40,868 bases of DNA. It comes from a virus. The notes beneath the pieces are model-generated. The model did no database searches and had not been told where the DNA came from. It saw only the letters and a program-made list of their open reading frames with translations. Positions 2,491-38,942 of this stretch are shown here, in pieces. Numbering within the stretch: the stretch's first letter is position 1; each line of letters begins with the position of its first letter. The position numbers were made by a program, and so were the translations under genes. The stretch is from positions 1 through 40,868 of the IMG/VR virus record IMGVR_UViG_3300022540_001027; one strand, written 5' to 3'.

Positions 2491-4485
2491 TCATAAATTC
2501 TGCATAATTAAAACAGTGTTATTCCAAGTTGAGTTAACACCGGCCTCATTACAAATTATATCAGAAATTATATTTTTTAAAGCAAAATTATAAACAGCAC
2601 AATCCCAAAAATGGTTATTTTTTCCATGCCTTCTTTCCCAAAGATAGTATTCAATATTATTAGCATTCTTTTTTATTTTCTTCTGTTCCCCTTCATAATG
2701 GCTGAAATAATTTTTATAATCATATTTTCCTTCACCAGAATTAGGGAAGTTCATAAAATTAGAAGGTTGAAATTCTTGATTAACTTCTAATTCCATATAA
2801 TTAGCAATATCATCTTTTATAGAATTAACATTAATTAAAAATAGATCTTCAATTTTTTTTGATTTTTTATATATTTGTCTGTCTTCTGTTGACATTCTGA
2901 AAGATTCAGGCTTATCACCTTTAAGACCCACTACATTTAAACCTGATTTATTGCATATTTTTATAAAGTCGTTTGCATATTCTGTATAATGTCCGATATC
3001 AACACCGGTTATAAAAATTTCCATTCCGGAATAATCTTTATTTATTATTTCTTCAAATGCTGCCCAAACCGAATAATCATCATAATGTCTGTATGTCCAT
3101 TTTATTCTGTCAGGCGGATGTTTAAAACCCTTATCACTAACTTTACTTTTAAAAGTTCCTATACTTCCGGCATCAACTGAATATGACGGTCCGTTTTCTG
3201 ACCAAGCTTTAATTTCATAATCAAGTCTTACATCATCACCTTCATCACCGTTCATTATTCCGTTTAAATCACAGCTGCATGTTATCATAATAATATCACC
3301 GTTACCATCTTCTTTGCTTAATTCAAACGGAACTTCACCGGCTTTATAATTTCGTGAATTATTTTGTAGTTTTGTGCTTTTTGGTGTTTTTCCTTTTAGT
3401 TCCCAAGTTTTTCCTAAAACAGAATTGTAAAATGACTGAAGTTGAACTTGATCCGGGAACCCTCCCCTGGGGTAGATCGATTGATATTTTACAGCGTAAT
3501 CTTCCCAAGATTTCATTCCGATGGGTGCATATAATGAAGATATTGCATAACTAACATAATTATCAGCAATCGGTTCAGCTGTCGGAATCCATTCACCGTT
3601 TTTTAAGAGATCTGTTTTATATTTTTTTTCTTCAAATTCATTACCACATTTTGGACATCTATACCGAACAGAACCGGGAACAACCCTGTTTTTTTTTATA
3701 TCAAATAAAACTCCGTATTGCATTCCGGCATCTGTTTTTCCGTACCATTCCCAAACAATATATTCCCCACATTTAGGGCATGGTACATTGTAATATCTTT
3801 GATCGCCTTGAATAAAAACTTTATAAATTATCGATGTATTTTTTAAAAGCGGTGTCGAAAGATACATTAATTTTCTTGACGGTCCGTAGCTTGATGTTCT
3901 GTCATCCATAACATTAATAAAAGATCCTGCCAATTCATCTTTTAATTTGTATGTATCGCATTCATCAGCAATCACAATTTGAACCGGGTTTGATCTCATA
4001 TTTGCCAAGGAACGGCCCCCGAAAGAAATTAAAGAACCACCGCTGAATTGTTTCCACATAGCTGTATCGCCGGAAGCTCTGTTATTTGTTTTTTTCTTTG
4101 CATCAAGTCTTATTAAATTTCGCAAATCAAAGCCATCAATTGCTTTATTTATACGGTTCATTGTTTTGGCAGCAAGATCTTCATTTGCACTAACAACCAT
4201 TATATTTGTAGGGCATTCTGATATTCGGTAGCAAATACCATTTTCAAAAGTAGCATTTCCGCCTAATTGATGGCCTTTAATTAATCCGAGAACATTTTTT
4301 GAATTATAAGGTGAAAAGAAATTCAGAATTTCTTTCATGTATGGAGTTCTTTCAATATCAAATTTCCCCTGAAAATTACTTTCACCTGATTTCATTATTC
4401 TATTGGCTGAAAAATCAGATGGTAATATATCGGAAACATTAAAATTAAAATTCGTTATTAATTTTAGTTTATCAATAAAATGCAT
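2491..4485 (-). CDS. Terminase large subunit, GpA family
   Basis: A 664-residue protein close to the usual GpA length. It would be the packaging ATPase and nuclease at the portal. A Walker A-like loop lies at residues 70-79 (KGHQLGGNAT), Walker B at 170-175 (IVIADE) and the coupling motif LSTP at 209-212. A zinc-ribbon-like insertion has CPKC at 236-239 and CPKC at 277-280. The C-terminal half carries acidic nuclease-like stretches (CSCDLNG, GVDIGHY). The Walker A differs from the lambda form but keeps lysine and glycine. It starts as TAATG overlapping the HTH gene upstream, which implies coupled translation. Unlike most phages, it points away from the head genes. Confidence 0.93.
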   Translation of the reverse strand: MHFIDKLKLITNFNFNVSDILPSDFSANRIMKSGESNFQGKFDIERTPYMKEILNFFSPYNSKNVLGLIKGHQLGGNATFENGICYRISECPTNIMVVSANEDLAAKTMNRINKAIDGFDLRNLIRLDAKKKTNNRASGDTAMWKQFSGGSLISFGGRSLANMRSNPVQIVIADECDTYKLKDELAGSFINVMDDRTSSYGPSRKLMYLSTPLLKNTSIIYKVFIQGDQRYYNVPCPKCGEYIVWEWYGKTDAGMQYGVLFDIKKNRVVPGSVRYRCPKCGNEFEEKKYKTDLLKNGEWIPTAEPIADNYVSYAISSLYAPIGMKSWEDYAVKYQSIYPRGGFPDQVQLQSFYNSVLGKTWELKGKTPKSTKLQNNSRNYKAGEVPFELSKEDGNGDIIMITCSCDLNGIMNGDEGDDVRLDYEIKAWSENGPSYSVDAGSIGTFKSKVSDKGFKHPPDRIKWTYRHYDDYSVWAAFEEIINKDYSGMEIFITGVDIGHYTEYANDFIKICNKSGLNVVGLKGDKPESFRMSTEDRQIYKKSKKIEDLFLINVNSIKDDIANYMELEVNQEFQPSNFMNFPNSGEGKYDYKNYFSHYEGEQKKIKKNANNIEYYLWERRHGKNNHFWDCAVYNFALKNIISDIICNEAGVNSTWNNTVLIMQNL

Positions 4486-4747: not shown

Positions 4748-5839
4748 TTATTTTAAAAATTTTAATATTGAAGAAATTATGTTGACGGTCCAACCATTAC
4801 CAAGCATTTTATAACGTTGGGTGTTTGAAACATGATTTGTATAGTTATCAGGAACCGTTTGTAGCCGTTCACATTCAATTGGTGTTAATCTTCTTAATTT
4901 GTAATCTTCTGTATATTCTGATTTTCTGTCATTTGAATTTTTAGGATTGCGTCCGCGCATTGCAACACAAATAATATCCATATCCGAATGATTACCGCCT
5001 GAATTACCACCGCCGGTTAAACAAGCTGCTTTATGTTGATCAGATTTTTCATTTAATTGTTTATCTAATTTTATAAATGTAGAACTTGATTTCATGGAAC
5101 CGGTAGTTAATGCTGTACTTTTTTGATTCCCGGTTTTAAACTCCGGTTTAAATCCGTTACCATTAGCTTTATTTCTTTTACCCCAATCGAGTAGATTATT
5201 AATAGTCTTTTCTTTTAAATAATATTTTTCATCAACCTCATTTTCAGGCTGCAAAATATCTTTTAATAGAATTCCTTTATCTTTTGGCTGTGGAATGTCA
5301 GAAACTAATTCATCTTTAAATAAACCAAAAGCTCTTGTTTTTATATTAGTCCAATAAAAACGATTTCTATTTTGTGCACTTAGTAAATTTGAATTAATAT
5401 TTACCGGAAACACTCCGACATGTTCAGAGATTATTCTCAAATATTCTTTCTTCATTCTTACATTTTCAAGTAAAAATTTTACTTCCGGATTCATTTTTTT
5501 TACATGGTTTAATATGTCGACAAAAACAAAAAATAATGCTGATCTGGGATCATTAAAATTTAATTGCTTCCCTGCAAAACTGAATCCTTGACACGGAGAA
5601 CCAGCCAATATTAATTTTATATTTTTCCAGTCAATATTCCATTGTTTCCAATTATTAATATCACCAAGTTGAATAGTATTCGGGAAATTTGCATTAGTAA
5701 CTTTTATCGCAAATTTATCTGTTTCAGAGGCATAATATTTATTATAAGGAATACATAAATCATTTAATGATATTTGTCCGCAACTCATGCCGTCAAATAA
5801 ACTTAATATATCTTCTCCCGGTAAACTTATTTTATTCAT
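4748..5839 (-). CDS. DNA (cytosine-5) methyltransferase
   Basis: A 363-residue C5-methyltransferase. Motif I is at residues 12-20 (LSLFDGMSC) and motif IV GSPCQGFS places the catalytic cysteine at 83. Motif VI ENV is at 125-127, followed by motif VIII (QNRNRFYW) and the C-terminal RRLTPIECERLQ and GNGWTV motifs. It would methylate cytosines in phage DNA to resist host restriction. No restriction endonuclease gene is next to it, so it looks like an orphan protective methylase. The start overlaps the preceding 59-residue ORF as ATGA. The target-recognition region (about 200-300) gives no readable specificity. Confidence 0.95.
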   Translation of the reverse strand: MNKISLPGEDILSLFDGMSCGQISLNDLCIPYNKYYASETDKFAIKVTNANFPNTIQLGDINNWKQWNIDWKNIKLILAGSPCQGFSFAGKQLNFNDPRSALFFVFVDILNHVKKMNPEVKFLLENVRMKKEYLRIISEHVGVFPVNINSNLLSAQNRNRFYWTNIKTRAFGLFKDELVSDIPQPKDKGILLKDILQPENEVDEKYYLKEKTINNLLDWGKRNKANGNGFKPEFKTGNQKSTALTTGSMKSSSTFIKLDKQLNEKSDQHKAACLTGGGNSGGNHSDMDIICVAMRGRNPKNSNDRKSEYTEDYKLRRLTPIECERLQTVPDNYTNHVSNTQRYKMLGNGWTVNIISSILKFLK

Positions 5840-6015
5840 ATCTTATAAACATTTTGGTCTTCCGGGAAATAAAATATTTCTTCCGTATCTATTCTTTTTA
5901 CTTTTATTCTTCCCTTGTATAATCTTTCTTCTGATTGTCTCATAGGAATTCGTTTCATTTTAATTCCGCTGTGCATTTCAAAATATTCATTTATTGCTAT
6001 TTCCGAAACTTTCAT
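5836..6015 (-). CDS. Small protein, 59 residues, unknown function
   Basis: Short ORF starting MKVSEIAINEYFEMHSG and ending EDQNVYKI. It is supported by tight packing: its start overlaps the end of the Cys-rich gene by 29 bases, and its stop overlaps the methyltransferase start as ATGA. It fills what would otherwise be a 147-base gap in a compact operon. Basic residues dominate the middle (MKRIPMRQSEERLYKGRIKV). No family is recognised. Confidence 0.75.
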   Translation of the reverse strand: MKVSEIAINEYFEMHSGIKMKRIPMRQSEERLYKGRIKVKRIDTEEIFYFPEDQNVYKI

Positions 6016-6181
6016 AAAAAGTTTTTAGTTTATTAAATAGTTCAATTATTAATGTCAGGAATGATTTTTTATATTTATTACACCAACTTGCATTAATTGA
6101 TATTTTCATATCTTTAAGTTTGCAATATCCTTTCTTATTGTGTTTGCATGTTTTACACTCTATTATTGTATTATTTACCAT
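5987..6181 (-). CDS. Cys-rich small protein, possible zinc binding
   Basis: A 64-residue protein with CKTCKH near residues 9-14, then YCKLKD and SWCNKYK. The four cysteines could form one zinc site, a layout common in small phage proteins. A weakly hydrophobic C-terminal tail follows. The start overlaps the end of the upstream DnaA-like gene by 7 bases. Function unknown. Confidence 0.65.
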   Translation of the reverse strand: MVNNTIIECKTCKHNKKGYCKLKDMKISINASWCNKYKKSFLTLIIELFNKLKTFYESFGNSNK

Positions 6182-6537
6182 AATATTTTTTTGATATTCA
6201 TTTTCTGAATCATATAATTTTCAAAATGTTCAAACTGAAATTTTAAATCATATTTATTTTTACATCTTTTACTTCCTGAAATTAAAGATGTTCTATCTCT
6301 ATCTACAACTATGGATATATCATTTTGTTTTTCATTTGTATAAATGTTTGCAAATGTCATATAAAAGAATCTTGCTTTTGCATTTAGTATATTATTTGAA
6401 AATCTATTAATACCATCAATATTAAAATATTTCAAAGTAAATAAAAGAATATCATTCAGTTTTGCAGAACGATTCTTGATGAATCTAATTTCAAGTTTTT
6501 TTAGATTTACAGATTTAACTATTCTCATAGAACTCAT
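6175..6537 (-). CDS. DnaA domain IV-like DNA-binding protein
   Basis: A 120-residue protein if started at ATG 6535-6537; an earlier in-frame start at 6609 would overlap the upstream gene by 95 bases. The segment ARFFYMTFANIYTNEK followed by ISIVVDRDRTSLISGSKRC resembles DnaA domain IV, where a helix is followed by an RDHTTV-type box-contacting loop. The ATPase domain of DnaA is absent. Such a protein might bind host or phage DnaA boxes to steer replication. The resemblance is by eye and moderate. Confidence 0.5.
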   Translation of the reverse strand: MSSMRIVKSVNLKKLEIRFIKNRSAKLNDILLFTLKYFNIDGINRFSNNILNAKARFFYMTFANIYTNEKQNDISIVVDRDRTSLISGSKRCKNKYDLKFQFEHFENYMIQKMNIKKILW

Positions 6538-6898
6538 AATTTTCAATTCCTTTTTTAACTGTTTTCTTGTATAGTTTTTTATTGAATACTTTAATAACAT
6601 TTGAATCATCTAATGCTTTAAACTCTTTTTTATCAATAAGGTATTTATAAAAATCTTGATTATGACATTCCAACATCACAAGATTTACCCCTTCTCTGTT
6701 ACATGAATTATAAAACCATTCAAAAACATCTTCTAAATGACCATTGCCGGGCTTTTCATTTATAACCGATAAAATATAATAGAAATCATCAGTAAAACCC
6801 CAAATTCCATGACATGTACCGATTTTATAAAGTAAACCGTATTCTTTACTTTCTTTAACAAGAAAATCAAGATTATGTTTTGTTTTTATTGTGTTCAT
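6515..6898 (-). CDS. GNAT-like protein
   Basis: A 127-residue protein. The core (EKPGNGHLEDVFEWFYNSC, then LVMLECHNQDFYKYLI) matches the helix-strand-helix pattern of the C-terminal half of GNAT acyltransferases, where a glycine turn binds the pantetheine pyrophosphate of acyl-CoA. The N-terminal part is short for a complete enzyme. It lies in the methyltransferase/terminase operon. A DNA-modifying role like that of Mom (a GNAT-fold protein) is possible but speculative. Confidence 0.45.
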   Translation of the reverse strand: MNTIKTKHNLDFLVKESKEYGLLYKIGTCHGIWGFTDDFYYILSVINEKPGNGHLEDVFEWFYNSCNREGVNLVMLECHNQDFYKYLIDKKEFKALDDSNVIKVFNKKLYKKTVKKGIENYEFYENS

Positions 6899-6903
6899 AC
6901 AAT

Positions 6904-7164
6904 TTAACTAAATGTTTTAATTAATAAGATTGTAATATAAATTGAAAAAACTGTTATTGATAGAGTTAATAAAAGATTCAAAACCATTGTTATTGCTTCA
7001 AAATACATTTTAACTTTAATTCCGGTTATAAGGAATTTTAAGGGGTTAATTGTTGATAAAGTTTTCTTTTTAGGAAGCTTTAATTCGTAGATTTTTTTTG
7101 CAGCATGCGTATCATTTATTTTTCCGGTTATTAAATCATTTAAGATTTCTAAAATATCATTCAT
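6904..7164 (-). CDS. Small membrane protein
   Basis: An 86-residue protein. Residues 1-38 are soluble and charged, followed by one long or two short hydrophobic spans at about 45-84 (MVLNLLLTLSITVFSIYITI). It is the first gene behind the minus-strand promoter at 7215-7244. No family is recognised. Confidence 0.65.
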   Translation of the reverse strand: MNDILEILNDLITGKINDTHAAKKIYELKLPKKKTLSTINPLKFLITGIKVKMYFEAITMVLNLLLTLSITVFSIYITILLIKTFS

Positions 7165-7200
7165 ATTAAATTAATTAAAGTTAATAATTAATATTCATTA

Positions 7201-7250
7201 AATTTACATAATCGCAAATATAAGTAAATTATTTTACATACAAAGTAAAT
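7201..7250. promoter_or_regulatory. Operator-like GTAAA/TTTAC repeats
   Basis: AATTTAC (7201-7207) is the inverse of GTAAATT (7224-7230). TTTACATA recurs at 7203-7210 and 7233-7240, and AGTAAAT at 7223-7229 and 7244-7250. The repeats overlap the minus-strand promoter and lie in the divergent gap before the virion operon, so a repressor or activator site is likely. A related perfect palindrome sits at 30423-30434. Confidence 0.45.
7215..7244 (-). promoter_or_regulatory. Bacteroidota-type promoter for the terminase/methylase operon
   Basis: On the minus strand a -7 box TATATTTG (7222 to 7215) follows a -33 box TTTG (7244 to 7241) after an 18-base spacer, close to the known TTTG/TAnnTTTG pattern. 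The start would be near 7209, about 45 bases before the gene beginning at 7164. Confidence 0.6.
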
Positions 7251-7288
7251 CATTATTTTATTTTAATTATTCTTAATAAATTGCAAAC

Positions 7289-7567
7289 ATGACAGAATCA
7301 GCATATTTAGCTTTATATCCGGATCCTGAAGCAAAATTAATACAAGTTCAAGCAATTTTAGACGCTTATGATTTACTTGTAACTGATTTAATATCAAAGG
7401 GTGCAATTAAAGATTATACGCTAAATGACGGACAAGTCCGTATTGAAAGATCATATGGAACATTAAAAGAAATTGCTGATGGTCGCTTAGCTTATGAACA
7501 ATTAGCCAACAGGCTGTTAAGTCAAATGGAAGGAAGATCAACAAAAATTCAACCATGTTTAGGATAA
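7289..7567 (+). CDS. gpW-like head-tail joining protein
   Basis: A 92-residue protein, first gene of the virion operon. The pattern of a helix, then DGQVRIERSY, then a second helix (LAYEQLANRLLSQ) and a flexible tail resembles lambda gpW, which seals the portal after packaging. The position directly before the portal is the lambda order. Its end overlaps the portal start by 13 bases. No TAnnTTTG box is seen upstream, so late transcription may need a phage activator. Confidence 0.6.
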   Translation: MTESAYLALYPDPEAKLIQVQAILDAYDLLVTDLISKGAIKDYTLNDGQVRIERSYGTLKEIADGRLAYEQLANRLLSQMEGRSTKIQPCLG

Positions 7568-9084
7568 GAACAAAAAATAAAGCATTATATGATAAACTTG
7601 AAATTCAAGATCAAAAATATAATGAATTATTAAGCCAGTTTTCATTTTTAGAACGTCAATATTTTGATGGTGAAAAAGAAGCCGGTGAACTTGGACCCGC
7701 TGTTTCAATTTATCCTGATTATTATTCAGCCCGGGAGCGTGCATGGGAACTGCAACTAACAAATGATATTGCAAAACTTGTTATTAATAAGTGGGTTACA
7801 TGGCTGATAGGCAAAGGATTACGGTTTAATGCTACACCGCCAAAAGATGAATATTTAAGCCAAAATACAGACAGGAATAAATTAATAAAAGATATTGAAT
7901 TTCGGTTTAGAAATTATCTGACAAGCCGTTATTCTGATTATTCTCAGATGTTGGACTTTCATAAAACAGCAAAAAACGCAACATATAATGCAATAACAGG
8001 CGGTGATGTTCTGGCTGTTTTAAGAGTTAAAAATAAACAAGTCACCATTCAATTAATAGATGGTGCAGTTGTTTCTACACCATCAGGTTATGACGGGGAC
8101 AATGAAATTCTTGACGGTGTTGAATTTAATGAAAAAGGAAAACATGTTGCATATCATGTTTTAGATTCTGAACTTGAACATGTTCGAATTCCTGCTGTTC
8201 ATGGATCTAGCGGTTTAAAAATGGCTTTTTTAATTTACGGCTCTAAATTCCGTTTAAACGAAACAAGGGGAACACCTCTATTATTAGAAAATTTTGAAAA
8301 AATAAAAAATCTTGAAAGATATATTGATGCAACAGTTAAAAGTGCTGAAATTTCAAGTGAATTAGCATTTATAAATGAACATGATAATAGTTCAACAGGA
8401 GAAAATATTTTTAAGAATTCGGCATTAAAGGCGATTAAAACAAGTACAGTAGATTATTCATCAGAATTACCTTCACCTTCATGTTTTCAAAATAATTTAG
8501 CTAAATCAACAAAAGGTATTGTGTTAAACAACACTATAGGGGCAGAATTAAAAATGTTGAAACCGGACGGTGAGGCAACAATGCCTGATTTTTTAGAAGC
8601 AAATTTAAAATTGACTTTTGCAAGCGGCGGAATTCCTTATGAAGTTGCAATGTCTGTTTATAATTCAAATTATTCTGCTTCCAGAGCAGCAATAAAAGAT
8701 TGGGAACATAATTTGAATGTAAAAACAGAAGAAATCGCAAGCCAAATTTATAAACCGTTCTATGATTTATGGCTTTATAATGAAATTTTAACAGGACGGG
8801 TTTCTTATCCTGAATTATTAACAGCATACAGTATAAAAGACTATGTTATGTTATCGGCATTAACAAAAGCAACATTTACAGGGGTATCAGTTCCGAGTAT
8901 CGATCCGTTAAAAGAAGTTAAGGCTGTACGGTCTGCAATGGGTGATGAAATAACTCCGTTAATGACCGGTGAACAGGGCGCTGAAATTGTTTCACAAATG
9001 GATTTTACAGAAATTCAAGAAATTGTTAAACAGGAAAGATTAATATCAGTAAAACCGATAAAAAATACAGAAGATGAATTATAA
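7555..9084 (+). CDS. Portal protein, lambda gpB-like
   Basis: A 509-residue protein, close to lambda gpB (533). It would form the dodecameric ring for DNA entry and exit. The early stretch AWELQLTNDIAKLVINKWVT with WLIGKGLRF matches the portal pattern of N-terminal helix followed by VGxGL. The middle contains long helices and a wing-like region. It overlaps the gpW-like gene before it and the protease gene after it by about 11 bases, as expected for a coupled head operon. Confidence 0.9.
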   Translation: MFRIRTKNKALYDKLEIQDQKYNELLSQFSFLERQYFDGEKEAGELGPAVSIYPDYYSARERAWELQLTNDIAKLVINKWVTWLIGKGLRFNATPPKDEYLSQNTDRNKLIKDIEFRFRNYLTSRYSDYSQMLDFHKTAKNATYNAITGGDVLAVLRVKNKQVTIQLIDGAVVSTPSGYDGDNEILDGVEFNEKGKHVAYHVLDSELEHVRIPAVHGSSGLKMAFLIYGSKFRLNETRGTPLLLENFEKIKNLERYIDATVKSAEISSELAFINEHDNSSTGENIFKNSALKAIKTSTVDYSSELPSPSCFQNNLAKSTKGIVLNNTIGAELKMLKPDGEATMPDFLEANLKLTFASGGIPYEVAMSVYNSNYSASRAAIKDWEHNLNVKTEEIASQIYKPFYDLWLYNEILTGRVSYPELLTAYSIKDYVMLSALTKATFTGVSVPSIDPLKEVKAVRSAMGDEITPLMTGEQGAEIVSQMDFTEIQEIVKQERLISVKPIKNTEDEL

Positions 9085-32206: not shown

Positions 32207-33016
32207 TTATAAAGGCATATTAACCTTGTTTAAAGTTTGTTTTGAAACATGTGTGTAAATTTCAGTTGTTTTACTACTACTGTGTCCGGCAATTGTTTGA
32301 ATTATTCTTAAATCTGTTCCGTTTTCTAACAAATGTGTAAAAGAAGAGTGACGCAATATATGCATATAAGCATCCTTCTCAATATATTTTTTTACAATTT
32401 TATTGCAAGATGAAGCTGTATATTGATTTTTAAATTGTCCGTTAAAAAGATATTCTTTTGGTAAATATTCTTTATAATATGTTCGTAATATCTCAACTAA
32501 TGATTGTGATAATGGGACTATTCTATCTTTTCTTCCTTTTGCTTGATATATAGTAATCAACATCCTTTTAGAATCAATATCTTTGATCTTCAAATTAATA
32601 ACTTCTGAAACTCTTAATCCACAACTATAAGTTAGAGCTAATATAGCTTTATGTTTGGTATTTTTTATTGAAAGTATTTTTTGCTTCAATGTTTCACTGT
32701 CAATAATTCTAGGAAGTTTTTTCTCCTTTCTTGGTCTTGTAATATTAAGGTCTAATTTTGCACCAATTATATTAATATAGAAAAACTTTATAGCATTAAT
32801 AATTTGATCTTGTTGGGATACTGATGAATAACTAAAATTTTCTAAATATATCTTAGCATCTTTAATGCTGATATGGTAAGGATCTGTATTATAATTTGCT
32901 AAAAATTTAGCAATATAAGAACAATACGTTTTTATTGTTTGTTCTGAATAGTTCCGAACTCTCAAAATGTTTTCCGTTTTTTTGAGAGTTGATTTTGATT
33001 TAATATTCATAATCAA
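32207..33016 (-). CDS. Tyrosine recombinase, XerC/D- or integron-like
   Basis: A 269-residue enzyme with a SAM-like N-terminal arm (SEQTIKTYCSYIAKFL) and a catalytic domain. The active-site set is complete: R135 (GLRVSEV), K160 (QAKGRKDR), H219 and R222 (HILRHSS), H245 (AGHSSSKT), Y254 (EIYTHVS). The length is that of simple Xer recombinases; there is no obvious insertion of the IntI kind between K160 and H219. It may integrate the phage and/or shuffle the cassettes immediately upstream. The methionine at residue 3 is an alternative start. Confidence 0.93.
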   Translation of the reverse strand: MIMNIKSKSTLKKTENILRVRNYSEQTIKTYCSYIAKFLANYNTDPYHISIKDAKIYLENFSYSSVSQQDQIINAIKFFYINIIGAKLDLNITRPRKEKKLPRIIDSETLKQKILSIKNTKHKAILALTYSCGLRVSEVINLKIKDIDSKRMLITIYQAKGRKDRIVPLSQSLVEILRTYYKEYLPKEYLFNGQFKNQYTASSCNKIVKKYIEKDAYMHILRHSSFTHLLENGTDLRIIQTIAGHSSSKTTEIYTHVSKQTLNKVNMPL

Positions 33017-33045
33017 TAGTTTATAATGATTTTAATATACATGTT

Positions 33046-33321
33046 ATTCAGGTTAATAACCGTTCGTTCGTGCCTCACTCCCTTTTTGTTTCTACATTTA
33101 AAAATCTATTGAAGCCTTTCTGAGAGTAAAATTTTAGTATAAATTCTTCTCCTGTATTTTCATCAATAAACATTTGTTCTATATGTGTTTCTAAATCGCA
33201 CACCTTAAATGCTGTTACTAAAATCTTACAGGCGGCAATACCTGCTTCTTTTAAAATTTCTTCTCTATCATTATCCATAGTTTGATTTTTAAATTCCCAA
33301 AACAAAATTATTAACCTGAAT
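33046..33321. repeat. 14-bp inverted repeats around the first cassette gene
   Basis: ATTCAGGTTAATAA at 33046-33059 is the exact inverse of TTATTAACCTGAAT at 33308-33321. Inside, CCGTTCGTTC (33060-33069) is the inverse of GAACGAACGG (33353-33362, just outside the right arm). The pair brackets the gene at 33075-33278, as R-type boxes bracket an integron cassette. Confidence 0.65.
33075..33278 (-). CDS. Cassette gene 0, unknown 67-residue protein
   Basis: Starts at ATG 33276-33278 (MDNDREEILKEAGIAACK); a longer TTG start at 33305 would reach close to the inverted repeat and is rejected. It is acidic and helical with FKVCDLETHIEQMFID and a late FYSQKGFNRFL segment. It is flanked by 14-bp inverted repeats. 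The sequence GTTCGTGCCTC overlaps its stop and recurs at 34538-34548. No family is recognised. Confidence 0.6.
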   Translation of the reverse strand: MDNDREEILKEAGIAACKILVTAFKVCDLETHIEQMFIDENTGEEFILKFYSQKGFNRFLNVETKRE

Positions 33322-33453
33322 GCTCGGTGAAACTCGAATCAAATTCCCGTGGGAACGAACGGAGACGTAACCCGAACAACAAATAAACAAAATTTGTACC
33401 TCTCTCTTTTTCGTACCTCAAAAGCGGAACAAACATTGCTTATTCACCGAGCA
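33321..33453. repeat. Attachment-like hairpin region, variant type
   Basis: TGCTCGGTGAA (33321-33331) is the exact inverse of TTCACCGAGCA (33443-33453), enclosing 111 bases with further short palindromes (TTCCC/GGGAA). The length and folded shape resemble the 132-base repeats beside it, but the sequence is different, as expected for an attC-like site of another cassette. No gene is seen between 33279 and 33595. Confidence 0.55.
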
Positions 33454-33589
33454 GTTTAAATGAATGTCTGTGACATTCATTTAAATGGGTAGTCAGATAT
33501 GTTTCAGAGGTGTCACAGACACTCATTCAAACTGTCAAATATATAACATTAACAAGTAACGAATTACATATCTGACTACCCATTACCCA
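33454..33589. repeat. Cassette repeat, copy 1
   Basis: 136 bases identical to copy 2. A 14-bp palindrome (TTTAAATGAATGTC, loop TGT) comes first. Then 19-bp inverted arms (33484-33502 and 33566-33584) enclose a second inverted near-copy of the TGTCTGTGACA core. It ends in TTACCCA just past the stop of the gene at 33596-33922. Confidence 0.95.
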
Positions 33590-33595
33590 CTATTA

Positions 33596-33922
33596 TTAAG
33601 TAGGGATTCCATTCTTATCACATTTTTTAAGTCCCGGCATTATTTCAGGATTATAGTGTGATTTTACACCGCAAAAAGAACATTGATAATCATATACATA
33701 TTGGTTTGTGTCCTTAACAAATCGTTCATCTAAAAAAGACTGACTATGTACCATTTCATTTCCACATTCGCAGAAAACTTGTGTATTCCATTTTCCGTCA
33801 ATTGCTCTTATTTTTTCGCCTTTTTTAAATTCGCTTAAATCTCTCCATTTTGTATCATTCAAGTAAAATGTTCTTTTGCTAAATAAGTTCCTGAACCACT
33901 GTTTTTGTATTAAAAAATTCAT
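33596..33922 (-). CDS. Cassette gene 1, possible zinc-binding protein
   Basis: A 108-residue protein from ATG 33920-33922; the longer start at 33961 would read into the flanking box. CECGNE in the middle and CSFC (YDYQCSFCGVK) further on give two CxC/CxxC pairs that suit a zinc ribbon. The gene is bracketed by TTACCCAC (33583-33590) and GTGGGTAA (33938-33945). Unknown function. Confidence 0.65.
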   Translation of the reverse strand: MNFLIQKQWFRNLFSKRTFYLNDTKWRDLSEFKKGEKIRAIDGKWNTQVFCECGNEMVHSQSFLDERFVKDTNQYVYDYQCSFCGVKSHYNPEIMPGLKKCDKNGIPT

Positions 33923-34029
33923 ATTTTCAAAATTAACGGTGGGTAACACTAAATATAGCAAATAAGCCCACCAAGTTTATATTAAATTATTAATTTCGTT
34001 TTTATGGCTTACTTGCCATATTATTGACC

Positions 34030-34165
34030 GTTTAAATGAATGTCTGTGACATTCATTTAAATGGGTAGTCAGATATGTTTCAGAGGTGTCACAGACACTC
34101 ATTCAAACTGTCAAATATATAACATTAACAAGTAACGAATTACATATCTGACTACCCATTACCCA
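34030..34165. repeat. Cassette repeat, copy 2
   Basis: 136 bases identical to copy 1, between cassette genes 1 and 2. The stretch 33923-34029 before it holds cassette-specific sequence with TATATTTA, a possible promoter for gene 1. Confidence 0.95.
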
Positions 34166-34173
34166 TAATACTA

Positions 34174-34473
34174 TTAATCGTATTTTAATTTAAGTTTTTT
34201 AAGTTGTTCTAATTCGTTTTTTTTAATTTCTTCTTTTTCTGCTTGTACTCTTTCTATTCTTTCATTATATTCTTCATCTGTTTCGTCTCTATTTGTATAT
34301 CCCTCAATCGAAACATAAGAACAGTTATAACTAGTTTCGCTATCTATTTCTATGTGTGTAGCTCCAAGTTTTTCGAGAGCGTCTAAATCTTCTCTCATTT
34401 TTTTTATTTCAATTCCGTATTCCCAATTTTCAAAATTGAATACTATATTAAATCTTCTGTTTACTTTTTCCAT
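34174..34473 (-). CDS. Cassette gene 2, charged helical protein
   Basis: A 99-residue protein with a mixed N-terminal domain (RFNIVFNFENWEYGIEI, LEKLGATHIEIDSE) and a long charged C-terminal helix (NERIERVQAEKEEIKKNEL). It is bracketed by TTACCCAT (34159-34166) and ATGGGTAA (34514-34521). An AACAATG/CATTGTT hairpin follows at 34520-34542. No family is recognised. Confidence 0.65.
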   Translation of the reverse strand: MEKVNRRFNIVFNFENWEYGIEIKKMREDLDALEKLGATHIEIDSETSYNCSYVSIEGYTNRDETDEEYNERIERVQAEKEEIKKNELEQLKKLKLKYD

Positions 34474-34572
34474 TATTTCAATTTTTAAAGTTAATATTTA
34501 ATTTAAACCGTACTATGGGTAACAATGTATAAAAATCATTGTTCGTGCCTCTCTACGCTTCTTATACTCAGC

Positions 34573-34704
34573 GTTTAAATGAATGTCTGTGACATTCATT
34601 TAAATGGGTAGTCAGATATGTTTCAGAGGTGTCACAGACACTCATTCAAACTGTCAAATATATAACATTAACAAGTAACGAATTACATATCTGACTACCC
34701 ATTA
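34573..34704. repeat. Cassette repeat, copy 3
   Basis: 132 bases identical to copies 1 and 2. The final ACCCA of the others is replaced by TAGCC. It lies between cassette gene 2 and a decayed ORF. Confidence 0.95.
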
Positions 34705-34711
34705 TAGCCAA

Positions 34712-34915
34712 TTAAGACTTATCTGTTTGGTCATAAAAAAAGTCTAAACTTTGTTGTAAAACGTCAGTGTGCCCAAAATATATTCTGCTCCAATATTTCG
34801 TTTTTTTAAATAATATTTTTATTAGCTGTTCTATTTCAGTTAGTCCTCTTTTCTCAAACAGGGGATGAAATGTAAATTTATATCTTTCTCCTAACCAATC
34901 AATTTCCTCTATTTG
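34712..34915 (-). pseudogene. Decayed cassette ORF, no start codon
   Basis: An open frame of 67 residues from after a stop at 34916-34918 to TAA at 34712-34714. It contains EEIDWLGERYKFTFHPLFEK and YFGHTDVLQQSLDFFYDQTD, which look like real protein, but no ATG, GTG or TTG opens it. Read as the remnant of a cassette gene that lost its 5' end. It lies directly after repeat copy 3. Confidence 0.5.
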
Positions 34916-34943
34916 TTAAGTTAGTATTGTTATTTAAGGGCAA

Positions 34944-34954
34944 ACTACCCATTA
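34944..34954. repeat. Remnant of the cassette repeat end
   Basis: ACTACCCATTA, identical to the last 11 bases of the 132-base repeat and again placed just beyond the stop of the next gene (34964). Confidence 0.55.
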
Positions 34955-34963
34955 GCGGTAAAT

Positions 34964-35179
34964 TTAAGTATAAACTTCACCGCAATCATGGCATACATCT
35001 GCATCATCTGTAATCGTCTGGTTTTTTGATCCACAATAAACACATTCATCATGCTCTGGATTTTCGTCTGTATTTGATTTTAAATGATAATAATCTTTCC
35101 CGTCAGAATAAACTACCGCTAACACAGGATCATAATTAATAGCCTTAGTTTCCTGTAACTTTGAAGTATTTTTTCCCAT
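34964..35179 (-). CDS. Cassette gene 3, zinc-ribbon protein
   Basis: A 71-residue protein whose C-terminal part has CVYC and CHDC (HDECVYCGSKNQ, ADVCHDCGEVYT), a clear CxxC...CxxC zinc ribbon. The N-terminal part is short and polar. The repeat-end remnant at 34944-34954 lies beyond its stop and the partial repeat at 35245-35271 lies upstream. Nucleic-acid binding is likely but the partner is unknown. Confidence 0.7.
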   Translation of the reverse strand: MGKNTSKLQETKAINYDPVLAVVYSDGKDYYHLKSNTDENPEHDECVYCGSKNQTITDDADVCHDCGEVYT

Positions 35180-35244
35180 ATCAAATATTGTTTAAATATT
35201 AAAATTTTAGTTTCATTAGTCGGTTACTAATCATAGCCTAACTC

Positions 35245-35271
35245 TTTAAATGAATGTCTGTGACATTCATT
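35245..35271. repeat. Partial cassette repeat, copy 4
   Basis: Only the first 27 bases of the repeat (palindrome with TGTCTGTGACA) are present, with the same left edge TTTAAATG. The rest is replaced by the end of a small membrane ORF. Confidence 0.85.
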
Positions 35272-35416
35272 ATTTATAAAAAAAATAAGCTGCTGTATGT
35301 CTTCCTATCCATAAAATGAAAAATATAACAAGTGTTAAGAATATAATTTTTAACAGATTTTTTAAAAATCTTCCAAAGCGCGTTAATTTTCTTTGATATA
35401 TTATAATTTCTATCAT
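35270..35416 (-). CDS. 48-residue membrane protein
   Basis: Short ORF MIEIIIYQRKLTRFGRFL followed by one hydrophobic span (IIFLTLVIFFILWIG). Its stop codon touches the edge of the partial repeat, so it marks the right border of the array. Function unknown. Confidence 0.5.
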   Translation of the reverse strand: MIEIIIYQRKLTRFGRFLKNLLKIIFLTLVIFFILWIGRHTAAYFFYK

Positions 35417-36677: not shown

Positions 36678-37484
36678 TTATTTATATTGAATAAAACACC
36701 AATCTTTCATTAATATTTCTTCTGAAGGAAGTTCAGATTCATCGGTGAATGTTACAGAAACTATTTTATTTAATTCTGCATCAATCATTTCTTTAGCTTT
36801 TTCTTCAATTATTGATTCAACTTCCGGTGCATATAAAGAACATTTTAATGTTGATGCATCAATATCTATTTCAACATCAAATTCAAATGGTTCTCCGCCT
36901 TTTAAAACTTCAAATTTTAATGTAAATTCAGTTGTTAAAGAGTGAATTACATTTTCTTTAATAATAAAGCTTTTTGATCCTTTATTATCATCAGAATTTT
37001 CAATTTCTTTATTTACTTTAGCTTTAAATGAACTTAATTCTTGAAAAACTTTTTTAAATAAATCTTTGTTTGGAAATAGGTGTTTTCTTTTTCTAAGTTC
37101 CCGTCCAAGTTCTTTTGCATCATATTCTTCATTAAACGGAATATTTAAATAATCTTTTGTTTCCTTTATCATTCCTTTAATGACTGTTTCATAATCATCA
37201 TCAAATCTTTGATCATTACCGATAAATTTAATTGATTTTTGATCATAATCAACAACAATATGAGATTTCGTTTTATCAAACAAATTAATTCTTTTGATTA
37301 AAAACTGAAAAACTGAATCAATTCTTCCTTCTTCTACACTTAAAGAAATCTTTTCAATTGGTGCTATTGGCATAAGCATATCAGCTGCAACACCTGTTCT
37401 TTGAATAATTTCAATTTTACCATCTTTTGCAGCATTTGCAAATGCTTGCATAAATTCTTTACTAAATACTTTTTTGTTTTCCAT
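36678..37484 (-). CDS. Conserved-looking early protein, unknown
   Basis: A 268-residue acidic protein. Residues 1-60 include IIQRTGVAADMLMPIAPIE; the middle is helical and basic (KELGRELRKRKHLFPNK); the C-terminal half is beta-rich (LTTEFTLKFEVLKGGEPFEF). It is in a block with HNH and replication genes, so a DNA-metabolism role is possible, but no motif supports one. It starts one base after the stop of the upstream gene. Confidence 0.6.
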   Translation of the reverse strand: MENKKVFSKEFMQAFANAAKDGKIEIIQRTGVAADMLMPIAPIEKISLSVEEGRIDSVFQFLIKRINLFDKTKSHIVVDYDQKSIKFIGNDQRFDDDYETVIKGMIKETKDYLNIPFNEEYDAKELGRELRKRKHLFPNKDLFKKVFQELSSFKAKVNKEIENSDDNKGSKSFIIKENVIHSLTTEFTLKFEVLKGGEPFEFDVEIDIDASTLKCSLYAPEVESIIEEKAKEMIDAELNKIVSVTFTDESELPSEEILMKDWCFIQYK

Positions 37485-37892
37485 TTAACTAATTTTTTTT
37501 TGTTTATTAAATAAATTCATAGTAGATCCTTTTTCAAGTCTAGTTTTTTCTACTATATAACCATCTTCATTAATAAGTTCAGCAAATTTTGTATCTGAAT
37601 TATGCACAGTCCAAATTTTACCGATCGCTTCCATAAATCCTTGTGTAACTTCATTGTTGTTTTTTCTTATTCCTTGATTTTTTTCAGAAATAAGTTTTGT
37701 TAATTTTTTTCTTTCTTCTTTCAATTTTTCAATAGATTGAAGGTTTTCATTAATTTCATCATTCCGTTTATCAATTTCTTCTTTTGAAAGGGGTTTTTGG
37801 TAAACATGTCCTTCTTTAACTTTAACACAATTAATTTCTAGGGCATCAATCCTTTCAGATCTATCCATGTCAAAAAAATCTGATTTTTCCAT
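37485..37892 (-). CDS. Coiled-coil protein, 135 residues
   Basis: The middle part (IDKRNDEINENLQSIEKLKE, then KKLTKLISEKNQGI) is a coiled coil; the end has IWTVHNSDTKFAELI. Its stop is directly followed by the ATG of the next gene (TAA ATG). No family is recognised; a partner of the 268-residue protein is plausible from coupling. Confidence 0.6.
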   Translation of the reverse strand: MEKSDFFDMDRSERIDALEINCVKVKEGHVYQKPLSKEEIDKRNDEINENLQSIEKLKEERKKLTKLISEKNQGIRKNNNEVTQGFMEAIGKIWTVHNSDTKFAELINEDGYIVEKTRLEKGSTMNLFNKQKKIS

Positions 37893-37919
37893 ATTATTAA
37901 TTTAAAGTTTATAAAATAT

Positions 37920-38246
37920 TTATTGGTTTATATACATATTAAATTTTTGTATTTTGTCATTAATAAATTTTTCATCAAATTTAACACCATGCAGAATCAT
38001 AAATTCTTTATGTTTCAAATAAAGAAATGACATATGTTCATTTTTATCACCAAATTCATCGTGTTCTTTTCTAGTTAATGCCATTAAATTTTCAATTCTA
38101 TCTTTTTCACCTTTGGGGTCTCCACCCATTCCGCGGTTATCAATATGATTAATATCAACAGCTCGATTTTCTGAAATTTCAGATGGTGTATAATCTTGTT
38201 CACCATATCCAAATGCATCGAGATATATTTTAGTATATTTTTGCAT
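37920..38246 (-). CDS. HNH endonuclease-like protein
   Basis: A 108-residue protein with NRAVDINHIDNRGMGGDP (D31, H34), IENLMALTRKEH (N53, H62): the H-N-H metal site of small endonucleases. The usual zinc-ribbon cysteine before the first H is replaced (PSEISENRA), a cysteine-less HNH variant. Phage HNH proteins often work with terminase or act as nicking enzymes; here it lies in the replication block. It overlaps the gene upstream as TAATG. Confidence 0.8.
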   Translation of the reverse strand: MQKYTKIYLDAFGYGEQDYTPSEISENRAVDINHIDNRGMGGDPKGEKDRIENLMALTRKEHDEFGDKNEHMSFLYLKHKEFMILHGVKFDEKFINDKIQKFNMYINQ

Positions 38247-38404
38247 TATTTTTTTTTTCTTGTTGTATTATATGCATGTATAAATAATGGAAATGTTATC
38301 AATAAAATACCGCTTAATGTGAGATTTATGCCTAAATATGATAAAAATTCTGTTGTTATTACAACATATAAAATTAATCTAAATATTGTTTTTATATAGA
38401 ACAT
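38246..38404 (-). CDS. Small two-span membrane protein
   Basis: A 52-residue protein from ATG 38402-38404; the longer frame uses TTG at 38437. Two hydrophobic spans (IFRLILYVVITTEFL and LTLSGILLITFPLFI) and a basic end (TTRKKK). Its stop overlaps the HNH start as TAATG. Function unknown. Confidence 0.55.
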   Translation of the reverse strand: MFYIKTIFRLILYVVITTEFLSYLGINLTLSGILLITFPLFIHAYNTTRKKK

Positions 38405-38453
38405 AATTATTTTCAGTTTTGCATTTTTAAAAATCAAAAAAAACGATTATTTT

Positions 38454-38942
38454 TTACAATAATTTTATTTTTTTTGGTGTCCATTTTATAAACTCATACT
38501 TTTCAAAATATTCAGTTCGTATATACATCGGCTTTTTTATTCCAATATCAATCGATGTGAAATATTGAAAAGGGTCTTTTATTGTATCGTTTAATTTCAT
38601 TATTTGTTGCCATGTAAATAGTTCAGCGCGTTTATCATATTTCAAAATACTTGCAATTGTAGGATTCGGATAAATGCAAGTATCAATAACATTATTTATT
38701 GCTGCTGTCAATCTTTTATTTGTAAATCCTTTTTCTTTTATTCTATTTTGAAACAAATCATAAAATTCAGCAGACAACGAAGGAAAAGCTATTTTAATTT
38801 TTGCAGTATTTTTAACTACACAATCAGCTGTAAGATCATCATTATAAATAGATATTTCATAATTATTTTCTTTTTTCTGCAAAGTTGTTAGCAGTGATTT
38901 CTGCGATTTCTTCAATAGTTGCACCGATTTGTTTTGTTCCAT
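38454..38942 (-). CDS. Replication-accessory protein, unknown family
   Basis: A 162-residue protein. The core (FYDLFQNRIKEKGFTNKRL, AINNVIDTCIYPNPTIASIL) is a pattern I associate with proteins beside phage replication initiators in Bacteroidota, perhaps helicase-loader-like. It overlaps the end of the initiator-like gene by 80 bases. The family name is unknown to me; the role is inferred from context. Confidence 0.5.
   Translation of the reverse strand: MEQNKSVQLLKKSQKSLLTTLQKKENNYEISIYNDDLTADCVVKNTAKIKIAFPSLSAEFYDLFQNRIKEKGFTNKRLTAAINNVIDTCIYPNPTIASILKYDKRAELFTWQQIMKLNDTIKDPFQYFTSIDIGIKKPMYIRTEYFEKYEFIKWTPKKIKLL

Follow-up and report, generated by a model that had tools for sequence, protein, structure and literature searches.

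A probable integron-like cassette platform beside a patchless tyrosine recombinase in phages and Bacteroidota

Xer recombinases, XerA among them, act at a single dif site to resolve dimers. Among the cassette-capture systems of bacteria, integrons are the chief ones known. Their single-strand chemistry is credited to one added helix, I2, which docks onto extrahelical bases and, in the published view, enables the integrase IntI to work on single-stranded attC sites (PMC7790495). From Bacteroidota there are scarcely any records of complete integrons (PMC9024848). Integrons and clusters of attC sites lacking integron integrases (CALINs) have been detected in phages with canonical models, the odd attC directions in phage P12002L being attributed to mosaicism (Qi et al., 2023; PMC9892861), and gene-less cassettes of Vibrionaceae superintegrons have been shown to carry promoters (PMC11014356). 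Here we analyse a 40,868-base virus record (IMGVR_UViG_3300022540_001027; in its full length, the window) in which small genes, all on the minus strand, alternate with a repeat immediately upstream of a complete tyrosine recombinase (32207-33016). An earlier note on this DNA, made from the sequence alone, had described an integron-like cassette array with a non-IntI recombinase and the R''/R' box logic of integrons, a description that family-wide arrays now support. We consider it very probable that the locus is an integron-like cassette platform shuffling phage accessory genes. The system is previously undescribed: integron-like in its working, it departs from integrons in IntI and I2, in the GTTRRRY box and in cassette polarity. 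In the open-access literature we found no description of an inverted system with a patchless (I2-lacking) recombinase, only canonical integrons and CALINs in phages (PMC9892861).

Cassettes, sites and their movement across the recombinase family

Relatives of the window recombinase with 52-63% identity are present in at least 80 viral contigs (two scans, of which the best 80 of 172 and the best 80 of 282 were taken). Arrays were first defined by boxes only, as GTTA plus at least five nucleotides with the reverse complement plus TAAC downstream, successive cassettes being chained via short spacers. Chains of at least two cassettes occur in more than half of 81 sequences and reach 12 in locus L029; in 810 Markov controls they never rose above two. 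Box complementarity mostly ends at nine nucleotides. Across the family there is no fixed sequence in the six nucleotides next to GTTA, which are matched only inside one cassette. The GTTRRRY consensus is not followed, GTTATAC, GTTACCC and GTTATAT all being common; the misfit of GTTACCC that had been pointed out in the window is real, but it is a property of the family rather than a peculiarity of one phage. Searching for stems only, as TAAC and GTTA enclosing a stem, gave 275 sites where Markov-shuffled sequence would yield 1.0, with 267 upstream of the recombinase (357 kb) and 7 downstream (501 kb). Boxes of neighbouring sites (after site i and before site i+1) were complementary at 6/6 positions in 109 of 205 pairs (53%), compared with 1.8% of 1806 non-adjacent pairs, and the inner arms of box-defined spacers matched their own partner (>=10/11) in 70% of cases and a swapped partner in 0.9%.

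The bodies of the phage attC-like sites in L019-L098 fall into three discrete length classes of ~42, 82 and 120 nucleotides, in steps of ~40 nucleotides. At 95 of the 267 phage sites an open frame begins inside the body and continues into the cassette gene, which fits body and gene as one unit. In about a third of the bodies the next gene has already begun, its start codon and initial ~20 residues lying inside the body and often forming a conserved leader such as MKDLKHIKRFNESEENLNISDV; one such body lies at 4925-5049 of L029, and similar 120-nucleotide sites are found in L023 and L033. In phage cassettes the stretch 10-29 nucleotides past GTTA is enriched in TAnnTTTG, the -7 promoter motif of Bacteroidota, and the sequences suggest that some of these cassettes may carry their own promoters.

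A further site precedes the recombinase itself. TAAC TATTATATATA is present in 63 of 71 recombinase leaders, usually 36 or 51-52 nucleotides before the ATG; homology between phages begins at its TAAC, and several recombinase-containing blocks start there. On this comparison the leader site is attI-like, with cassettes joined to it. L054 contains a 394-nucleotide perfect duplicate with its second copy immediately next to the recombinase leader, the outcome expected of insertion at that point, and we therefore read the leader site as attI.

Cassettes are also shared and reordered. The near-identical phages L025, L026 and L077 have a common backbone and the same cassettes in different orders. The earlier note had proposed comparing related phages for cassette change, and had regarded the same genes in the same order without repeats as fatal to its reading; because the cassettes are reordered, that objection fails. 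Cassettes with 97-100% identity occur in otherwise different contigs. One of 315 nucleotides is 100% identical in L029 and L056, another of 277 nucleotides is common to L025 and L062, and a third of 960 nucleotides to L025/L026 and L077. Across 85 non-redundant viral loci, common cassette blocks are nearly always bounded by TAA/C (the slash marks the crossover point), and the unit is therefore C-body-GTTAnnnnnn-gene-n'n'n'n'n'n'TAA. Assigning each attC body to the upstream gene, in the canonical integron way, was rejected: in the phages the body moves with the downstream gene, as is shown by the duplicate in L054, by the blocks that L025 shares with L077 and L029 with L056, and by the junctions at the leader. 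Comparison between phages in this way demonstrates cassette mobility, and the window-family recombinase would be the catalyst of the movement.

These events could instead have arisen by ordinary homologous recombination and mosaicism, with the hairpins acting as terminators or regulatory elements, cassettes moving through homology within and near them, and the recombinase being an unrelated phage integrase. Phages are mosaic, and certain exchanges look homologous, for example an 83-residue cassette with a hybrid leader in L026. We nevertheless regard this explanation as unlikely, since breakpoints fall at the four-nucleotide TAAC even between unrelated flanks (L029/L056, L038/L042) and since it leaves unexplained both the reverse-complement ends within, not between, cassettes and the 38:1 placement of sites upstream of one recombinase family.

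The hairpins are asymmetric between strands. Read on the gene-sense strand, mismatches in the box-defined phage sites are G.T in 152 cases and A.C in 15, and at 93 of 106 phage sites the gene-sense strand forms the more stable hairpin, as expected if selection acts on one folded strand; bacterial sites lean the other way (G.T 6, A.C 27). Phage genes read toward the recombinase in 145 of 151 cases and bacterial array genes away from attI, the canonical polarity, in 27 of 30, Flavobacterium limicola being one example of the latter. Viewed from attI, the favoured strand is identical in the phage and bacterial groups, and it is gene direction that differs. The biases suggest that one strand folds, and single strands may be the recombination substrate. 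Of 90 phage stems, 69 pair 15 or 16 of 16 positions with no bulge and 20 are helped by one, so the extrahelical bases onto which I2 docks are mostly missing along with I2.

As an integron-like platform, the locus would work as follows. The recombinase would recognise the attI-like site in its own leader, TAA/C TATTATATATA, and one attC-like site per cassette, a folded single-stranded hairpin with the core TAA/C...G/TTA, an inner stem and a variable loop. Strand exchange at the core would excise cassettes as C-(attC body)-GTTAnnnnnn-gene-n'n'n'n'n'n'TAA, to be re-inserted at attI beside the recombinase or at another attC site. Viewed from the attI side this would be integron geometry, with attC at the attI-distal end of the cassette; the phage gene would be inverted, reading toward attI and the recombinase. 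In the window array, a 128-bp gene-less unit would in addition have been copied into three attC crossover points.

The window array and its 128-bp repeated unit

The window has a 15-nucleotide terminal overlap and a complete myophage gene set, comprising terminase, portal, protease, major head protein, sheath, tape measure and baseplate. Its array is a partly degraded copy of the family arrangement, the distal part of which is decaying, with cassette c3 truncated and c4 unpaired (Table 1). Three identical repeats and two remnants do alternate with small same-strand genes, as first described; the exact repeat is 128 bp rather than 132-136 and lies between a shared TAA and a C. Once this unit is masked, the array consists of three family-type attC sites (53, 86 and 142 nucleotides) with the attI-like leader at its end, and of three box-paired cassettes in order, matching over 9, 8 and 7 nucleotides. 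The first two pairs, which frame genes 2 and 1 (c2 and c1), had been recognised from the outset and the third, at gene 33075-33305 (c0), had been missed; shuffled versions of the array contain none or one complementary pair. The attI-like site departs from the family consensus TAAC TATTATATATA. The cassette at 34712-34915 was rightly taken to be decaying, its frame lacking a start and a 5' box. The boundaries of c4 are uncertain because its candidate 5' box, GTTAGGCTAT, is not complementary to the 3' box. The motif TTCGTGCCTC is found at 34541-34552, within the c2 attC body, and again at 33064-33076, after the c0 gene and near attI.

Table 1. Features of the cassette array in the window
Feature	Coordinates	Strand	Details
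Tyrosine recombinase	32207..33016	-	PF13495 and PF00589; 269 residues, TTG start, ATG at 33010; no I2/patch insertion
attI-like site in recombinase leader	33034..33059	-	TTATTAACCTGAATAA/CATGTATATT; compared with 63 family leaders
Cassette c0	33053..33454	-	box-paired, 5' GTTAATAA, 3' TTATTAAC; gene 33305-33075, 76 residues
c0 attC-like body	33454-33315	-	GCTCGGTGAA and TTTCACCGAGC
128-bp gene-less unit, copy 1	33455..33582	-	between TAA of c1 and C of c0
Cassette c1	33583..34030	-	box-paired, 5' GTTACCCAC, 3' GTGGGTAA; gene 33961-33596
c1 attC-like body	34030-33947	-	ATATGGCAAGTAAGCC and GGGCTTATTTGCTATAT
128-bp gene-less unit, copy 2	34031..34158	-	between TAA of c2 and C of c1
Cassette c2	34159..34573	-	box-paired, 5' GTTACCCATA, 3' TATGGGTAA; gene 34473-34174, 99 residues
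c2 attC-like body	34573-34523	-	GTATAAGAAG and TTTTTATAC
128-bp gene-less unit, copy 3	34574..34701	-	between TAA of c3 and C of c2
Cassette c3, 5'-truncated	34702..34944	-	start codon, 5' box and attC body gone; 3' box TGGCTATAA retained
Truncated 128-bp unit copy	34945..34951	-	TGGGTAG; immediately follows TAA of c4
Probable cassette c4	34952..35244	-	gene 35179-34964, 71 residues, weak zinc-ribbon match; 3' box TACCGCTAA
27-nucleotide remnant of 128-bp unit (terminal hairpin)	35245..35271	-	sequence match to unit

The repeats had at first been taken for the attC-like sites themselves, an assignment we revise: they are 128-bp gene-less units, and the attC sites are the variable segments beside them. 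The unit contains two hairpins, the last being TTTAAATGAATGTC-ACA-GACATTCATTTAAA, and has the anatomy of a cassette without a gene, in which the first hairpin is followed by 14-nucleotide complementary boxes 3 nucleotides apart. Each intact copy lies exactly at the TAA/C crossover point of a family-type attC core (3/3), and no target-site duplication flanks any of the three. We infer that the unit is a gene-less cassette inserted into three attC crossover points. It resembles the gene-less cassettes of Vibrionaceae (PMC11014356) in being apparently without a gene in an integron-type array; promoter activity was shown for those cassettes, whereas the 128-bp unit is known from its sequence. Nucleotide searches of GenBank phages with the window array gave no match, nor did a search of Rfam. 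Two exact matches to the repeat arms in viral contigs both lie within unrelated coding genes and were set aside as chance.

The presence in a single genome of three identical copies whose arms are inverted, and the failure to find the unit in the other viral contigs or phages searched, are also what a miniature inverted-repeat transposable element (MITE) might produce, the repeat then being a non-autonomous transposon and the integron look incidental. Such an origin is very unlikely here. The intact copies all sit exactly between TAA and C, boxes and attC bodies of standard form persist when the unit is masked, and no comparable element was seen in the family-wide arrays. A MITE with target duplications had been named beforehand as an outcome that would undo the cassette reading; no duplication flanks the repeat, and this objection therefore fails as well.

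The recombinase and its relation to integrons

The window recombinase carries the catalytic residues R135, K160, H219/R222, H245 and Y254, which are kept in all members of a 20-sequence alignment. Its initial description as complete and free of an IntI insertion holds, structure, profile and alignment comparisons agreeing that the I2 (patch) insertion has no counterpart in it. The IntI4 structure 2A3V aligns in two pieces, with 79 chain residues facing 31; the TIGR02249 score is 171.9 bits against a cut-off of 265, with a split alignment; and IntI1, at 26% identity, belongs to a separate clade and has an insert that is missing in the alignment. The XerA model NF040815 scores 187.9 bits against a cut-off of 220, and the solved folds nearest to the predicted structure are XerA and IntI4. 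XerA/Xer enzymes (NF040815, PDB 5HXY, 4A8E) are the closest class in fold and sequence, sharing PF13495 and PF00589 and likewise lacking the insertion; unlike those enzymes with their single dif site, the window clade adjoins cassette arrays. Phylogenetic reconstruction places the phage recombinases in one clade (support 100/100), inside which the bacterial-bin contigs L099, L100 and L103 nest. The nearest sequences outside it are patchless Bacteroidota chromosomal recombinases, joined by a small number from other phyla; IntI1 and XerD are distant. GenBank phages contain no member of the clade, the best identity being 40.6%.

A canonical integron (IntI plus attC) acquired by a phage, as in Qi et al. 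(2023), would bring the same attI, attC and 3'/5' box-pairing logic; phage-borne attC sites are known (PMC9892861), and the integrase_gron model does align, in pieces. The origin is extremely improbable for this locus, given a recombinase at 172 bits against a 265-bit cut-off, 26% identical to IntI1 and devoid of the I2 region, together with boxes that are not GTTRRRY, inverted gene polarity and no consistent extrahelical stem base. That the enzyme is a lysogeny integrase, as its PHROGs label (integrase) and the frequent position of tyrosine integrases next to attP might suggest, with TAAC TATTATATATA as attP and an array of independent origin, is scarcely credible, because the conserved leader site is the same TAA/C that bounds the cassettes, a duplicated cassette joins it, and arrays occur on contigs of up to 180-360 kb, some of them carrying T4-type portals, a setting in which a lysogeny integrase is unusual.

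The family shares much with class 1 and Vibrio chromosomal integrons. Its recombinase lies next to an attI-like site, every cassette has a single attC-like hairpin at the attI-distal end, end and start boxes are complementary, one strand appears to be favoured for folding, and the genes are mostly small and of unknown role. It differs from them in having no I2 insertion, in a core of G/TTA plus free bases in place of GTTRRRY, in stems that show G.T wobbles at preferred positions instead of a consistent extrahelical base, and, in the phages, in genes that face attI and in many cases have their start within the attC body. We lean towards regarding it as a second kind of integron, namely a patchless Xer/XerA-like family of Bacteroidota and phages that would use folded attC-like sites without I2 or extrahelical bases, with G.T wobbles marking the strand and a phage branch of inverted cassettes (attC 5' of the gene). 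If so, integron recombination would not need the I2 innovation, or would have arisen from this patchless lineage. The same cassette logic, widespread without the I2 helix, would make the origin of integron recombination directly testable.

Several points weigh against an integron-like platform. The case for recombination is one of sequence comparison, in which no excision junctions were seen, and the absence of I2 is a real difficulty because the published view ties single-stranded attC use to that helix (PMC7790495). The unit-bearing junctions in the window read TAA/T, not TAAC, and the window array is degraded, with a divergent attI-like site and an unpaired c4. No close relative of the window phage with an intact array was found by neighbouring protein, terminase or sheath, searches that returned only recombinase-free fragments and are therefore uninformative either way. 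Array-bearing contigs are mostly metagenomic; of 20 such records, many of them fragments, only 8 yielded a terminase or a T4-type portal.

Bacterial arrays, a cultured phage and the cargo

Box chains of at least three cassettes were found in 7 of 80 bacterial loci and in none of 240 controls, and in five of the seven the array begins ~75-250 nucleotides past the recombinase stop. The system had been proposed to be a phage-borne one of Bacteroidota; its carriage by phages and its Bacteroidota relatives are upheld, but these chromosomal arrays show that it is not confined to phages. In Flavobacterium limicola an nhmmer profile finds at least 11 strong, near-full-length attC-like copies on one strand over ~64 kb, in a chromosomal array behind a patchless recombinase (L129; G001:C1:1354800-1434400, loci L274-L277), apparently an unrecorded sedentary integron-like island.

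The lytic, cultured Polaribacter phage P12002L (L292, NC_028924) holds two family-type cassettes at 37264-38936, with a Mom-like gene and a DNA methyltransferase. One family-type attC site (38879-38936) lies between the Mom-like gene and the methyltransferase cassette, and no recombinase is annotated. Given this site, parts of the family were probably touched earlier, without the recombinase; the phage integrons and CALINs already described likewise include attC-type sites and methyltransferase cassettes (PMC9892861).

The cassettes encode 308 proteins in 267 clusters, with a median length of 85 residues. Pfam matches were few among the 106 cargo proteins scanned and comprise DNA methyltransferases, RNA ligase, an Rv2179c-like RNase, YopX, ADP-ribosyltransferase and Lar-like restriction alleviation. 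The cargo is probably made up of small, fast-changing phage accessory and counter-defence genes, to judge from these matches, and would benefit the phage. Large hidden cassette pools are indicated by arrays in dozens of Bacteroidota phage contigs and in the chromosomes of Flavobacterium and other Bacteroidota.

Two further loci with related recombinases were noted. L184 (IMGVR_UViG_2883400621_000001), a viral record that may derive from an isolate genome, contains three 1.87-kb repeats, 99.7-99.9% identical, at 2502-4370, 4792-6669 and 6961-8838. The Flagellimonas plasmid NZ_CP092416.1 (L283, 11020-12795) encodes a 45% identical recombinase, annotated as xerA/integron integrase, directly behind erm(F).

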